From: Nitrospirota bacterium
GTDB lineage: Bacteria; NPL-UPA2; JAADIA01
Direction: 5' to 3'
NCBI GenBank assembly: GCA_013151555.1
Contig: JAADIA010000066.1
Location: 1-8,483, forward strand
Length of the DNA stretch: 8,483 bases
A model generated the notes under the pieces. It had not been told where the DNA came from and did no database searches. It worked only from the letters and a program-made list of their open reading frames with translations. Shown in pieces: positions 3,010 to 8,483 of this stretch (positions within the stretch are counted from its first letter, which is position 1; each line of letters opens with the position of its first letter). Position numbers and translations under genes: made by a program.

Positions 3010-3061
3010 GGGGACTGTCCCAGATTTACGGAGCGTTAGCTCGTAGAATCGGGACTGTCCC
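3010..3061. repeat. REP-like element: paired 11-bp palindromes flanking a hairpin
   Basis: Two direct copies of GGGACTGTCCC (3011-3021 and 3051-3061) are each a perfect inverted repeat (GGGAC-T-GTCCC). Between them, GAGC-GTTA-GCTC (3031-3042) forms a hairpin extended by GATT...AATC (3022-3025 and 3047-3050). GGGACTGTCCC-type units resemble extragenic repeats mobilised by Y1-type (RAYT/IS200-like) transposases, but no transposase is in this window. The right copy ends 18 bases before the ATG at 3080, and its last bases can pair with the ribosome binding site. Confidence 0.6.
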
Positions 3062-3079: not shown

Positions 3080-4255
3080 ATGGGGACATATCAAAGAATA
3101 AAGGGTCTTGGGACCATTCTTTTAGTTCAAGCCGTTATCCTGGGCTTGTTTGGAATGGGGACGGTTAAGGCCGGGCAGCAAATGGTTAGCGTAGCCGTCC
3201 TGGATTTTGATGTTACCAGGTCATTGCCCAACCGGGAGGATGTAAGATCGGTTATTACCGAGGGACTGATCAATGCCTTATCTGAAAAAGAGGGAATCCG
3301 GGTAGTGGAGAGAGAAAAGATAAGCGAATCCTTGCAGGAGCTTAAGTTAAGCGCCGAAGGGAAGATTGATAGATTGACCGCTTTGAAGATAGGGAAGATA
3401 ACAGGAGCCAGACTCATTATCAGCGGCAAAGTGGCCAGGATATCCGAAAGTATCATTATCAGCGCCCATCTGATTAATACCGAAACTACCCAACTATCCG
3501 CTGTTCAGGTTACCGCAGAGGGAATAAACCGGTTACTCCCGGCCGTTGATGCTCTTTCCAAAAAAATAGTAGAGCGTATTGCCAAAGAAGAAAAGGGTAT
3601 TCTCGCTGTTCCTTCACCAGAGGAAGAGATGAAGAGACAAAAAGCAGAGGAAGAGAAAATAAGAAATAAGATTGCCGGAAAGCACCTTCCCCGCCTCCTC
3701 ATTTTCGTTACTGAAGGGCATATGGGCCGGCAGGTCCCTGATCCGGCCGGAGAAACGGCAATGATTCGCTGGTTCACCAACTGCGGTTTTCCGGTAGCCA
3801 GCCGCATTTATGAGGGCATTCACGTACCCCTCCCTTCTCTTGAAAACCGGGGAGAAGTCACACTTGGTTTTACTCCGGCAGGGAACAAGGGAAGAAAGAT
3901 ATTTAACCTGTCCGGTCGGTTAATAAACAAGATAATTACCGGAGATTTTACAGCCATAACAGATAAGGTCAAGCAAGTTGCGGATTTGATAATTATCGGG
4001 GAGGCCTTCAGCGAAAGAGGAACCGAATCTCAAGGCCTGATATCAAGCAAGGGAAGAATAGAAGTCAAAGTTGTGGATACCCGCACGGGCAAGATTATGA
4101 TGGCGGCCAGCAAATATGGCGCCGGAGTAGATGTAGCTGAGCGGGTGGCCGGGAAAAGAGCGCTCCAGCAGGCCGGGGAAGAATTGGCCAAGGAGCTAAT
4201 TCCTATAGTAGTTGACAAGTGGGAGATCAAGTTGGAGAAAAGAAAAGGATGGTGA
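3080..4255 (+). CDS. Exported protein with CsgG/FlgO-like domain and a second, related-looking C-terminal domain
   Basis: This 391-residue protein has a signal peptide (hydrophobic core about 10-27, cleavage near VKA|GQ at 31). Residues about 35-170 form a CsgG/FlgO/TolB-N-like fold: strand V-A-V-L-D-F-D-V (38-45), then E-K-E-G-I-R-V-V-E-R-E-K-I-S-E-S-L, then A-L-K-I-G-K-I-T-G-A-R-L-I-I-S-G-K-V. A charged helical linker (about 172-202, rich in Glu and Lys) leads to a second domain (203-391) with P-R-L-L-I-F-V-T-E-G and, near the end, I-E-V-K-V-V-D-T-R-T-G-K-I-M-M-A followed by a long helix. That ending also recalls CsgG/FlgT-type proteins, so the protein may be a divergent tandem. There is no lipobox, so it is probably periplasmic. 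The TGA stop overlaps the next gene's ATG (TGATG), indicating co-expression with the CHAT gene. Confidence 0.8.
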   Translation: MGTYQRIKGLGTILLVQAVILGLFGMGTVKAGQQMVSVAVLDFDVTRSLPNREDVRSVITEGLINALSEKEGIRVVEREKISESLQELKLSAEGKIDRLTALKIGKITGARLIISGKVARISESIIISAHLINTETTQLSAVQVTAEGINRLLPAVDALSKKIVERIAKEEKGILAVPSPEEEMKRQKAEEEKIRNKIAGKHLPRLLIFVTEGHMGRQVPDPAGETAMIRWFTNCGFPVASRIYEGIHVPLPSLENRGEVTLGFTPAGNKGRKIFNLSGRLINKIITGDFTAITDKVKQVADLIIIGEAFSERGTESQGLISSKGRIEVKVVDTRTGKIMMAASKYGAGVDVAERVAGKRALQQAGEELAKELIPIVVDKWEIKLEKRKGW

Positions 4256-4740
4256 TGGAAAAAAGGAAGATTAAGAAAATGATGCCGGGGACAAATTTCA
4301 AGATAATATCAAGAGTAGCAGTATTGCTGTTACTGTTGTTCATTCCCGCTACTTGGGCAAATGTTAAAAAGTCGGAATCTAGGCCGATGGTCAGCAAATC
4401 TTCAGAAGCAGGCCTGGCACCTGGAACCATATATCTGATACCCATTGGTCAGGTAAGAGATAAATTGTTAAAGGATATGGTAACGGACATGGAATCCCGG
4501 CTCCGACATCCTGTTAAGATTGAACAATCTCCAGTAGATTTTTCCCGGGTCTACGATTCTGTTAATGACCGGTATGATGCTAGCGCCCTTTTAGATGAGA
4601 TGGGATGGAAAAGATATATTTCCCTGAAACGTTGTGTATTATTGGGGTTACGGAAAAGGGAATCTATACTAATGATAGCCTGTGGTATAACTACGCGAGG
4701 CTCAAAGCAGGGATTGGTGTGGTCTCCACATATCTACTAG
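4255..4740 (+). CDS. N-terminal fragment of the CHAT gene: signal peptide plus first half of archaemetzincin-like domain (frameshifted)
   Basis: The start at ATG 4255 is chosen because AAAAGG ends 6 bases upstream and the codon overlaps the previous stop; ATG 4249 and a longer form from 4219 are alternatives. Residues 1-35 form a signal peptide (core VAVLLLLLFIP, cleavage TWA|NV). From about residue 58 the sequence matches the start of archaemetzincins: I-Y-L-I-P-I-G-Q-V, then S-P-V-D-F-S-R-V-Y-D-S-V-N-D-R-Y-D-A-S-A-L-L-D-E-M. After about residue 116 (around 4602) the frame loses family resemblance and ends at 4740 in unrelated sequence. The domain resumes in the -1 frame in the overlapping ORF from 4605. 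This is therefore best read as the broken front of a single gene, not an independent protein. Confidence 0.72.
   Translation: MEKRKIKKMMPGTNFKIISRVAVLLLLLFIPATWANVKKSESRPMVSKSSEAGLAPGTIYLIPIGQVRDKLLKDMVTDMESRLRHPVKIEQSPVDFSRVYDSVNDRYDASALLDEMGWKRYISLKRCVLLGLRKRESILMIACGITTRGSKQGLVWSPHIY
4599..4640 (+). other. Probable frameshift site (-1 relative frame change)
   Basis: The upstream frame carries archaemetzincin-like sequence up to about LLDEMG, and the -1 frame carries the continuation from EKIYFPETLCIIGVTEKG. The -1 frame has a TGA at 4596-4598, so the switch must lie after that and before about 4635. The likeliest places are the A run 4609-4612 or the G run 4602-4604; one extra base in either restores a continuous frame. 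No standard A-AAA-AAG slippery heptamer is present in the reading phase. A sequencing or assembly indel and a real mutation are both possible. Confidence 0.75.
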
Positions 4741-7217
4741 AGCGAGGTCTGCTTGGCAAGACTCCCTATAATAAACTTCTGGGCTATCTTCCAAGAGCGT
4801 TCCTCCTCCGTTTCCATAGCTTATTTGGCAAAGTTAACTATAATAAACTTTTGGAAAGAGTTCTAAAGAAAACCAATAGAATTATCTACTATTCTTTGAA
4901 TATGAGTATGGAGAACTGCTCTAATCCAAATTGTGCGAGCAAGAAGACGGTGAGCCTTGCTGCAATCGATAGTAGCGACCTTGACTTTTGTGATGAACCT
5001 CAAAAGAAGTTGCTCGACCCGGTCTGGGTATATGGGCGGATGGCTTACCGCTATCAAAAGTTAGGATTTTATTCTGACGCCGAGAAATACTTTAAAAAGG
5101 CCCTGGCAATAAACCCCTCGGATATTTTCTCTCTGGATAAACTAGGAAACTTATATCACTATTCTGTTAATAATGAAGAACAGGCCGAAGTATATTACCT
5201 AAGAGCAATAGCAGCCTTTGAGAAATTAGGGGATAAGAAAAAACTCGCGGGTTTATATAACTCATTAGGATGGGTTTATCATAGCGACCAAATCAACAGG
5301 GGAAAAAGAGGATATATGGACAGGGCTTTTGTCTCTTTTCAGAAAGCCTTAGCCTTATCAAAAGAGACGGGGAACGAATGGCAAGAGCAGCGGGCCTTAA
5401 GTGGATTAGCTGCAGTTTATGATAAGAGAATTAATTTTGAAAAATCCATTGAGCTAAAACGCAAGAGCATGGAGATATGTAAAAGAAACGGGTGGACAAG
5501 CACTTATATGAGCAGGGTGAGCAGTTTAGCGGTCAATTATGGTCACCATGGCAAATACGATAAGGCCTTAGAATATGTGGCGGAAGGGATGCCTTATTGG
5601 AAAGAGAAAAAAAATTTGAATATGATAGCTTGGTCTTACGGAATATTCGGCCGAGCCTACCTGGCCCAGGGCAAGCATGAAGAGGCCTACCAAGCTTTAA
5701 AGAAGTCAGTGGAAATCATGGAGAAAATACGCCTGCGTAACAAGTTGGATACAGATAAATACAAAAGAGACTTTATGGGATATCAATGGAAAGAACGGTA
5801 TAATTGGATGATCGAGGCCTCTTTGACAACGAATAGAGAAGCTGAAGCCTTTAACACCATTCAGATGTATAAGGCCAGGGCCTTATTAGACTTATTAGGG
5901 GGAAAGAAATTCAATGCCAAACGGAAACTGCTCACCGAAAAAGAGAAAGAAAAAAGGCTGCTCCTGGCAAAAATAGATACCCTAAAGGGGAAAATAGATC
6001 AGGAAAGACAGATATTAGGACCGGGAGGAATCACCCGAGTAGAAAGGACACTGAAACTGGAACAGAGTAAATACGAGAAATTGAAAGAAGATATTGCCAA
6101 TAGCCGGCAAGAGATAAAGTCGCTGGAGAATATCAGCCCCTCGGGTTTAAAGGATGTTCAGAAGTTCATAAAAAATTTCACCCTGGTAGAATATTTTGTC
6201 GCCACCAGTATGAAAAAAAACTTAAAAGTGTTTGCCTGTATTATAACTAAGGATAACTTTACTATTCAAAAAATAAATATCTCTCAGGAGAAACTAAAGG
6301 AGAAGATAACTCAATTCCGGGAGGCTATTCTTCAAACCTCAAAGTCTCAACGGACCCTGAAGTTGGAAGAAGTTAAAGGGAGAAAACCAAAGATAAGTCA
6401 GGAAAAGGAACTTTCCCAGGAACTGTACAATCTGCTTATCAAACCGGTTCGGCCCTATATAAAGACGAAAATAATCTATATTTCCCCCGATAACGTTCTC
6501 AATTACCTTCCCTTCCAGGCCCTGCAGAACAAGGGCAGATACCTGGTGGAAGATTACGCTATTGCCTATACTCCCAGTGCCAGTGTCCTCAAGTTCTTTC
6601 TGAAGAATAGAAGGCAGAATAATAATAAGGAAAGGATCTTAGCCTTCGGAAATGCCAATCTAAGAGATCCCCGCTTTAAGTTAGTTTACGCAGAAAAGGA
6701 AGTGAAAAAAATCGCCCGGTTATTTCCTCAATCCCGGGTATTCTTAGGGGACGAGGCCAATGAGTATACGGTAAAGCTGTTGAGTGGTGACTATGATATC
6801 CTCCATTTTGCCATCCACGGCCAACTCAATCCGGAAGAACCGATGTTATCTTGCCTGAGGTTATCTCCCGATAAAGAGAACGATGGATATTTGCATGTCA
6901 GAGAGATATTCGACCTTAACCTGAACGCTTCTTTAGTGGTCTTAAGTGCCTGTGATACCGCTTTAGGAGAACTTACCTTAGGAAATGAAGTAGTAGGCTT
7001 AACCCGGGCATTTCTCTTTGCGGGAGCATCATCGGTTATCTCCACCCTCTGGAATATAGACGATGAGGAGACTTCCATCTTAATGACTGACTTCTATAAG
7101 AACCTGAAGACCATGAGCAAGGTAGAGGCCTTGAGGGAAGCCCAGGTAGCCATGATAAAGAGAGCTAAAGCACCTTATTACTGGGCAGCCTTCGGTTTGT
7201 TCGGGGATTATAGGTAA
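4605..7217 (+). CDS. CHAT-domain (caspase-like) protease with TPR array and degenerate archaemetzincin-like domain
   Basis: This 870-residue frame is the bulk of a gene whose true start is probably 4255; joined, it would be about 987 residues. Residues 4-135 continue an archaemetzincin-like domain: C-I-I-G-V-T-E-K-G-I-Y, then Cys105-x4-Cys110 (NCSNPNC) and Cys129. The protease motif HExxHxxGxxH expected just before Cys105 reads I94, Y95, L98, S101, N104, so it should be catalytically dead. Residues about 138-425 hold roughly six TPR-like helical hairpins (first: YQKLGFYSDAEKYFKKALAI), and about 437-512 a Lys/Glu-rich coiled coil. The CHAT domain occupies about 525-868, with the catalytic His738 in L-H-F-A-I-H-G and Cys783 in V-L-S-A-C-D-T-A-L-G, then E-V-V-G-L-T-R-A-F-L-F-A-G-A and the terminal Y-Y-W-A-A-F. 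CHAT proteins are separase/caspase-clan cysteine proteases; TPRs usually provide partner binding. With the upstream signal peptide it should act outside the cytoplasm. ATG 4605 lies inside the first domain with a poor SD, so it is unlikely to be the native start. Confidence 0.88.
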   Translation: MEKIYFPETLCIIGVTEKGIYTNDSLWYNYARLKAGIGVVSTYLLERGLLGKTPYNKLLGYLPRAFLLRFHSLFGKVNYNKLLERVLKKTNRIIYYSLNMSMENCSNPNCASKKTVSLAAIDSSDLDFCDEPQKKLLDPVWVYGRMAYRYQKLGFYSDAEKYFKKALAINPSDIFSLDKLGNLYHYSVNNEEQAEVYYLRAIAAFEKLGDKKKLAGLYNSLGWVYHSDQINRGKRGYMDRAFVSFQKALALSKETGNEWQEQRALSGLAAVYDKRINFEKSIELKRKSMEICKRNGWTSTYMSRVSSLAVNYGHHGKYDKALEYVAEGMPYWKEKKNLNMIAWSYGIFGRAYLAQGKHEEAYQALKKSVEIMEKIRLRNKLDTDKYKRDFMGYQWKERYNWMIEASLTTNREAEAFNTIQMYKARALLDLLGGKKFNAKRKLLTEKEKEKRLLLAKIDTLKGKIDQERQILGPGGITRVERTLKLEQSKYEKLKEDIANSRQEIKSLENISPSGLKDVQKFIKNFTLVEYFVATSMKKNLKVFACIITKDNFTIQKINISQEKLKEKITQFREAILQTSKSQRTLKLEEVKGRKPKISQEKELSQELYNLLIKPVRPYIKTKIIYISPDNVLNYLPFQALQNKGRYLVEDYAIAYTPSASVLKFFLKNRRQNNNKERILAFGNANLRDPRFKLVYAEKEVKKIARLFPQSRVFLGDEANEYTVKLLSGDYDILHFAIHGQLNPEEPMLSCLRLSPDKENDGYLHVREIFDLNLNASLVVLSACDTALGELTLGNEVVGLTRAFLFAGASSVISTLWNIDDEETSILMTDFYKNLKTMSKVEALREAQVAMIKRAKAPYYWAAFGLFGDYR

Positions 7218-7262
7218 GGAGCAACAATAAGGACCGGAGAATTGTGTTTAGAGGAGACGTTT

Positions 7263-8267
7263 ATGAAAAAATTACTTTTACTAATAATATCCTGTTTTAT
7301 CTATATAAGTATCTTCGCCACAAGTGCGACTCCGTCGGAATCGAAAAACAAAACAGATGTTGTAAAAATTCTTGCCGGAATAGTAGAAAACAATCTGGAT
7401 AAATTGCCTGGGAAGACTATCGCCGTGATTCCTTTTTCTTATCCGGATGGGATAAAATCAATGGAGGGTTCCTTAATTTCCGAACGCCTGATAACCAGAC
7501 TCACAGAAGATGGTAAAGTTAAAGTGTTAGAACGATATATGTTGGAAGAGGCTTTAAAGGAACAGAAACTTAACGCCTCAGGACTGGTTGACCCCCGGTT
7601 GGCAGTGAAACTAGGCAAGATAATCGGAGCCCAGGGTATCCTTTCCGGAACCATAACGGACCTGGGCGAGAAGATTGAGATAAATGCCCGCTTGTTTAAG
7701 GTAGAGACCGGCGAGGTAATTGCGGCCAGGACCCTGAGGGCCAGAAAGACCATAAAGACCTTCATCAGTCCTTTATGGGATGAAATCAACAGAATAAAAC
7801 AGGAAAGCCCCAGTTTTAAAGCCAGGATTTGGCTGGACAAAGATGCTTACAAGATTGGGGATTTTCTGACCGTCCGTTTTGAAACGGATAGGGACAGCTA
7901 TGTTACTATCTTCGATTTCAACACCGACGGATCAGTATTCATCCTTTTCCCCAACCGGTTTGTCCCCAATAACCGCGTCAAAGGAGGCAAAACCTACACC
8001 ATTCCTGCTGAGGAGGACGGTTACAAAATCAGGGTTCACGGTCCCGCCGGGCTGGAAAGACTTAAGCTCTTTGCTACCACCAAAGATATTCCCCTCTTTA
8101 CCGAAGATTACTCCCAGAGCCCCTTTCGTTCCCTTTCAGAAGATAAACGCTCTACTCCCAGAAATTTACAGGCAATCATAGATAATTTGGAGAAAAACAG
8201 CTGGGCAGAATCTCGGGTTGAGTTTTTAATAGAGAATGTTTTTAGAGGTGGTTCGTATAGACGATAG
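7263..8267 (+). CDS. Exported CsgG/FlgO-like plus DUF4384 protein
   Basis: The start at ATG 7263 follows GAGGAG by 6 bases and opens a signal peptide (MKKLLLLIISCFIYISIFAT, cleavage near TSA|TP); an in-frame TTG/ATG extension upstream lacks an SD. The product is 334 residues. Residues about 50-165 form a CsgG/FlgO-like domain (K-T-I-A-V-I-P-F; K-V-K-V-L-E-R-Y-M-L-E-E-A-L; A-V-K-L-G-K-I-I-G-A-Q-G-I-L-S-G) clearly similar to domain 1 of the 3080 gene. Residues about 187-270 match DUF4384: D-A-Y-K-I-G-D, D-R-D-S-Y-V-T-I-F-D, F-I-L-F-P-N-R-F and G-P-A-G-L-E-R-L-K-L-F-A. DUF4384 often accompanies caspase-like and TPR proteins, which agrees with the CHAT gene 45 bases upstream. An I-I-S-C resembling a lipobox ends at residue 11, too early for a usual lipoprotein signal. 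The role is probably a periplasmic or envelope partner of the CHAT protein (inference). Confidence 0.87.
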   Translation: MKKLLLLIISCFIYISIFATSATPSESKNKTDVVKILAGIVENNLDKLPGKTIAVIPFSYPDGIKSMEGSLISERLITRLTEDGKVKVLERYMLEEALKEQKLNASGLVDPRLAVKLGKIIGAQGILSGTITDLGEKIEINARLFKVETGEVIAARTLRARKTIKTFISPLWDEINRIKQESPSFKARIWLDKDAYKIGDFLTVRFETDRDSYVTIFDFNTDGSVFILFPNRFVPNNRVKGGKTYTIPAEEDGYKIRVHGPAGLERLKLFATTKDIPLFTEDYSQSPFRSLSEDKRSTPRNLQAIIDNLEKNSWAESRVEFLIENVFRGGSYRR

Positions 8268-8415: not shown

Positions 8416-8483
8416 ATGTTGAATTTGAGAAAGATTAGCTATCGCTTAGCAGTTTATTTTTGGTGTCTTGCAGTTATTGCTTG
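8416..8483 (+). CDS. Start of another exported protein (runs off right edge)
   Basis: An ATG 7 bases after AGGGAGGG opens a frame that continues past the window edge. The 22 visible codons read MLNLRKISYRLAVYFWCLAV, then IA, with two positive residues followed by a hydrophobic stretch, consistent with a signal peptide or signal anchor. Nothing else can be said about the product. It lies 148 bases after the DUF4384 gene on the same strand, so it may belong to the same transcript. Confidence 0.55.
   Translation, partial: MLNLRKISYRLAVYFWCLAVIA

Follow-up and report, generated by a model that had tools for sequence, protein, structure and literature searches.

CHAT proteases are known chiefly from cytoplasmic defence, with Craspase and SAVED-CHAT as examples. 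In DdvA, a membrane-anchored TPR-CHAT protein tied to ECF sigma factor signalling, the CHAT part faces outside. The titles of the DdvA structures (PDB 8rot, 8rw5) call the protein a transmembrane anti-sigma factor. In Csx29/Craspase of type III-E CRISPR (PDB 8eex, 7y85, 8d9f), TPRs are followed by a CHAT domain with a Cys-His dyad, and this cytoplasmic protease is activated by Cas7-11 and RNA. Csx29 cleaves Csx30, which itself inhibits CASP-sigma (PMC10028731). Caspase-like peptidases have further been found coupled to DUF4384, namely in 23 of 473 putative cyanobacterial orthocaspases (PMC8283722). Here, we characterize a bacterial gene trio in which the sequences of a TPR-CHAT protein lie between genes for LpoB/CsgG/FlgO-type and DUF4384 proteins.

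The stretch of DNA that was analysed (the window, 8,483 bp) is the entire contig G000:C48 of a 1.81 Mb genome in 99 contigs. The host bacterium is little known; it is diderm and thus possesses an outer membrane, since its genome encodes an intact 757-aa BamA, followed by Skp-like and LpxC genes. All genes of the window lie on the + strand. An ECF sigma factor gene (450-1118; Pfam Sigma70_r2 2.5e-17, NCBIfam ECF models) is overlapped by a zf-HC2 anti-sigma factor gene (1108-1683; Pfam zf-HC2 3.4e-9) whose product has one transmembrane segment in a hydrophobic-segment scan. Genes for a secretin N-domain protein (1754-2455; Pfam Secretin_N 2.2e-7) and an SdpI-like membrane protein (2605-2946; Pfam SdpI 2.2e-15) follow, and then the trio. 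A strong terminator-like hairpin of 16 pairs (331-367) is located upstream of the sigma factor gene, and GGGACTGTCCC occurs twice immediately 5' of gene 1 (3011-3021 and 3051-3061, 40 bp apart). A further ORF with a signal-peptide-like N-terminus begins at 8416-8483, where the contig end cuts it.

The outer genes of the trio encode proteins with signal peptides and were correctly recognized in the earlier note as CsgG-like and FlgO/DUF4384, respectively. Gene 1 (3080-4255) carries tandem LpoB/CsgG/FlgO-type domains (Pfam CsgG PF03783 E 1.1e-10, LpoB 8.6e-5). Its C-terminal part (G1C, about residues 200-385) contains the motifs VPDPAxE and GEAFSExxxExxG; on iteration the G1C profile began to recruit other CsgG-type proteins, and only its best matches were used. 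Gene 3 (7263-8267) combines a FlgO/CsgG-type domain (about 7419-7733) with a DUF4384 domain (7848-8084), the Pfam matches being DUF4384 4.5e-25, CsgG 3.3e-13 and FlgO 6.7e-7. Its structure model was not usable (pLDDT 33) and no relatives were found in viral contigs. The alpha/beta domain common to CsgG, LpoB and FlgO proteins is present in both genes, but the matches cover just positions 7-99 and 41-105 of the 210 in the CsgG profile, in the first half that LpoB and FlgO share. Gene 1 lacks a lipobox, with no Cys near the cleavage site, and gene 3 shows only a doubtful IISC. Given the half-profile match and the missing lipobox of gene 1, a CsgG-type pore or anchor is not supported, and neither is the earlier proposal that these proteins form or anchor an envelope complex; any channel role is putative.

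Gene 1 and the ORF that follows overlap by TGATG (4253-4257), and a 45-bp gap (7218-7262) separates the TPR-CHAT ORF from gene 3, both as noted earlier. What had been described as one pseudoprotease-TPR-CHAT protein with a signal peptide is encoded in all its parts, but in two frames; an ORF joining signal peptide to protease is absent from the sequence as read. The frame-1 ORF (4255-4740) encodes a signal peptide (MEKRKIKK...AVLLLLLFIPATWA), with cleavage likely after ATWA, and the N-terminal third of a degenerate archaemetzincin, with residues 59-119 corresponding to positions 2-62 of the NF033823 HMM profile (E 1.1e-3); its tail beyond about 4605 reads the wrong frame. The frame-0 ORF (4605-7217, 870 aa) contains no signal peptide and encodes the remainder of the archaemetzincin (about 4605-5015), a TPR superhelix, a helical linker and the CHAT domain. 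A profile built from 25 bacterial archaemetzincins is matched at positions 12-72 by frame 1 (28.3 bits) and at 79-183 by frame 0 (23.8 bits). The joined frames, a protein constructed for analysis and found in no single ORF, score 58.8 bits, with 5000 shuffles reaching 5.9 at most. Similarly, NCBIfam NF033823 matches the joined form at 2.4e-12, below the curated cut-off of 145 bits, and either half alone at about 1e-3, while a plain protein search returned stand-alone archaemetzincins (best E 2e-8). Because both frames encode parts of one archaemetzincin domain, the break at about 4600-4625 is either a frameshift or a sequence error. It is equivalent to one missing base and was placed beside GGAAAAGA by the frame switch of the archaemetzincin profile; a codon-usage scan placed the switch only loosely, at about 4630-4680. 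Programmed frameshifting is thought unlikely, as no canonical -1 slippery heptamer was seen on inspection of 4595-4620.

Homology to archaemetzincins (Pfam M54, NF033823) is clear across most of the domain. However, the HExxHxxGxxH zinc site is lost, with IYYSLNMSMEN in its place and profile positions 131-147 unmatched. Since the site is lost while three of the four zinc-site cysteines are kept, the domain is a dead metzincin, so that the pseudoprotease of the earlier note holds apart from being split across two frames. Archaemetzincins elsewhere are stand-alone, whereas this one is fused to TPR-CHAT: no other archaemetzincin-CHAT fusion was found in 386 genomes, where all matches were stand-alone archaemetzincins, and M54 matches across 193 genomes never lie beside CHAT. 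A dead-metzincin N-terminus on TPR-CHAT is unusual.

The CHAT domain (PF12770; 6408-7208) is matched over profile positions 2-289 of 289 at E 2e-68, and the TPR superhelix (about 5028-5726) by Pfam TPR_12 at 4.5e-20. The caspase-like catalytic residues expected of the protease were found as an intact dyad, H738 in FAIHG (nt 6816-6818) and C783 in LSACDT (nt 6951-6953), both invariant in an alignment of six sequences. In a structure model of ORF 4605-7217, the TPRs and most of CHAT have pLDDT values above 65, while residues 1-191 stay below 50. The best structural match of this model is DdvA (Z 20.9, 373 residues aligned), at an rmsd of 15.6, and the domain arrangement may thus not match. Csx29 and the Craspase TPR-CHAT were matched with Z 16.1 and 15.0, respectively, Foldseek yielded E values of about 1e-12 against the Csx29/Craspase TPR-CHAT, and the DdvA sequence matches the CHAT profile at E 3.2e-6. 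Listed defence systems gave only weak TPR and BovA matches. The locus thus shares TPR-CHAT with DdvA, and with Craspase also the domain order and the Cys-His dyad. In contrast to DdvA, the CHAT ORF carries neither a zf-HC2 domain nor an inner transmembrane helix, the anti-sigma factor being a separate gene. In contrast to Craspase, the candidate partners are envelope proteins, and a search of the 8.5-kb contig revealed no Cas7-11 or CRISPR partners. DUF4384 is paired with a caspase-like peptidase as in the cyanobacterial orthocaspases, but here it forms part of a FlgO-type protein encoded apart from the peptidase, which is of the CHAT type.

We surveyed 193 genomes, in most cases a single one for each family. 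CHAT was found in 46 and DUF4384 (above cut-off) in 41 of them, with both present in 22 (odds ratio 5.9, p 5e-6, phylogeny ignored). Co-occurrence beyond close relatives, a check set beforehand, was indeed observed: of the 21 other genomes containing both, 5 (G055, G090, G101, G131 and G180), each from a different family, have CHAT no more than 4 kb away from DUF4384. With the genome of the window excluded, 0.17 genomes were expected and none of 200,000 simulations reached 5. Within 3 kb of CHAT, DUF4384 was found in 7 genomes versus 0 DUF4384 genes in 800 kb of control DNA, and LpoB/FlgO-type genes gave 6 versus 0; the control came partly from the same genomes as the CHAT loci and the HMMs of this test were partly trained on CHAT loci, which makes the 4-kb test with Pfam models the cleaner one. 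Overall, the two families are adjacent in only 5-7 of the 21 other genomes with both.

G147 contains a cluster with relatives of all three proteins, as does G101 in a looser sense. The G147 cluster comprises a BlaI-like gene, a BlaR1-type M56 protein fused to the two gene-1 domains, a FlgO-DUF4384 protein and a divergent lipobox TPR-CHAT protein; aligned end to end, gene 1 is 32% identical to the C-terminal part of the BlaR1-like protein. In locus L148:4590-8277, a BlaI-like gene accompanies a BlaR1-type M56 gene that carries the two domains of gene 1, and a lipobox TPR-CHAT gene adjoins. G101 encodes a FlgO-DUF4384 lipoprotein, a lipobox TPR-CHAT protein, a CsgG-TPR lipoprotein, a FlgO-type protein and LPP20-like lipoproteins, with two CsgG-type proteins in a row. 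It is the sole genome of its small phylum with CHAT and DUF4384, both of which it contains, and offers no ortholog series. A signal-peptide TPR-CHAT protein is encoded 21 bp from a DUF4384 protein in G131. In G090 and G180, a kinase domain is followed by one transmembrane helix and DUF4384, and the adjoining CHAT protein probably carries a signal peptide. Receptor-like kinases with DUF4384 beyond the transmembrane helix are seen at L143:5446-7218 and L144:9127-10851, where ECF and CHAT genes adjoin. In such clusters, DUF4384 or the gene-1 domains make up the outer portion of membrane kinases or of a BlaR1-like receptor, with exported CHAT proteins alongside. In G055, a caspase-DUF4384 fusion with a Tat-like signal neighbours two CHAT proteins, both likely to carry signal peptides.

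DUF4384 and exported CHAT are predicted to share a membrane side in G101, G131, G147, G090, G180 and G055, with signal peptides called from a simple hydrophobicity criterion and visual inspection and with uncertain start codons in GC-rich loci. The association of exported TPR-CHAT with DUF4384 and LpoB/FlgO-type proteins is recurrent in unrelated bacteria. A hydrophobic segment, mostly N-terminal, precedes CHAT in 31 of 67 CHAT proteins, so that exported, periplasmic CHAT is not unusual. The earlier note had set the predicted periplasmic or surface location against the usual discussion of CHAT systems as cytoplasmic effectors. Exported CHAT is not exceptional, the solved DdvA being a transmembrane CHAT protein, and this contrast owes more to what has been published than to what genomes encode. 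Large CHAT proteins, about 2300-2800 aa in length, were seen at L207, L213, L214, L216, L220 and L223, several of them with lipoprotein or signal peptides.

ECF genes were found within 3 kb of CHAT at 21 of 60 loci, in 14 genomes, versus 1 in 800 kb of control DNA; a single-sequence ECF query, free of training bias, gave 10 versus 1 (p 3.5e-5). The 21 loci are L143, L144, L151, L153, L156, L158, L159, L190, L194, L195, L198, L200, L201, L206, L208, L209, L215, L217, L218, L225 and L229. At L200:5335-8910 (G142), zf-HC2, one transmembrane helix, TPR and CHAT are combined in one chain with an ECF gene 12 bp upstream, a layout that we take to be the one expected of DdvA. Both this enrichment and the cleavage of Csx30 by Csx29 speak for a sigma-signalling module, in which the upstream ECF/anti-sigma pair would serve as the protease's output, as for Csx29-Csx30-CASP-sigma or DdvA. 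In the window, this connection is weak because two genes, about 1.4 kb, intervene between the pair and gene 1, and because the sigma/anti-sigma/secretin-like order of 450-2455 recurs in G032 (L295), a genome without a CHAT match, so that the pair may be an independent unit. We consider such a module highly improbable here, the tie between the pair (450-1683) and the trio being uncertain.

For the trio itself, we see about even chances that it represents a TPR-CHAT protease of the extracytoplasmic space, with the LpoB/FlgO-type and DUF4384 proteins serving as its sensors or being its substrates. It would descend from an extracytoplasmic proteolytic module centred on an exported TPR-CHAT cysteine peptidase; the N-terminal archaemetzincin of this ancestor, catalytically dead, was probably used for binding or recruitment. 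Its TPRs may hold CHAT inactive, or recruit trigger and substrate, as in Craspase. The gene 1 (LpoB/FlgO-type) and gene 3 (DUF4384) proteins would be its periplasmic partners, as clients or sensors, and cleavage of a substrate by the CHAT protein is presumed. Gene 1, gene 3 and the frame-1 ORF, which encodes the N-terminal portion of the archaemetzincin continued in frame 0, all have signal peptides. This suggests export of the full-length protein, which would require that the frame break is an error, arose recently or is bridged. The envelope location proposed earlier agrees with the diderm host and the frame-1 signal peptide but does not extend to the CHAT ORF as read; since this ORF has no signal peptide, export requires a one-base correction or a frameshift, or has been lost.

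If the frameshift is real, TPR-CHAT could be translated alone from an internal start (e.g. ATG 4605) as a cytoplasmic protease, with the envelope proteins as mere neighbours. ORF 4605-7217 runs uninterrupted for 870 codons and, like many CHAT proteins, has no signal peptide, but its start falls inside the archaemetzincin domain, a split for which this explanation gives no reason, and comparable clusters show exported CHAT; we regard it as unlikely. The break within a domain, together with the lack of CHAT and DUF4384 in the eight other searched genomes of the host phylum, would also fit a recent pseudogene and a module decaying in the host lineage. This is decidedly unlikely in our view, the 870 codons being otherwise undisrupted and the dyad intact. 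CsgG/LpoB-type genes are numerous (84 of 193 genomes), and the trio might simply belong to a general cluster of envelope proteins, with CHAT functionally unconnected to those of the CsgG/FlgO and DUF4384 types. Against this stand DUF4384-CHAT adjacency at about 30 times random expectation in distinct families and intergenic gaps of just 21-45 bp in the pairs of G131, G055 and the window, and we judge it quite improbable.

Returning to the extracytoplasmic protease with its partners, a broader and more tentative reading, which we hold to be possible though doubtful, is that exported TPR-CHAT proteins represent widespread extracytoplasmic proteolytic signalling, an outside counterpart of Craspase. 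DUF4384 and LpoB/FlgO-type domains, either free or as outer parts of kinases or BlaR1-like receptors, would then sense or be cut. If the conserved link is true, it would provide a first testable role for DUF4384 and would suggest that caspase-like proteolysis also operates beyond the inner membrane, coupled to outputs of the kinase, BlaR1-like or sigma-factor type.
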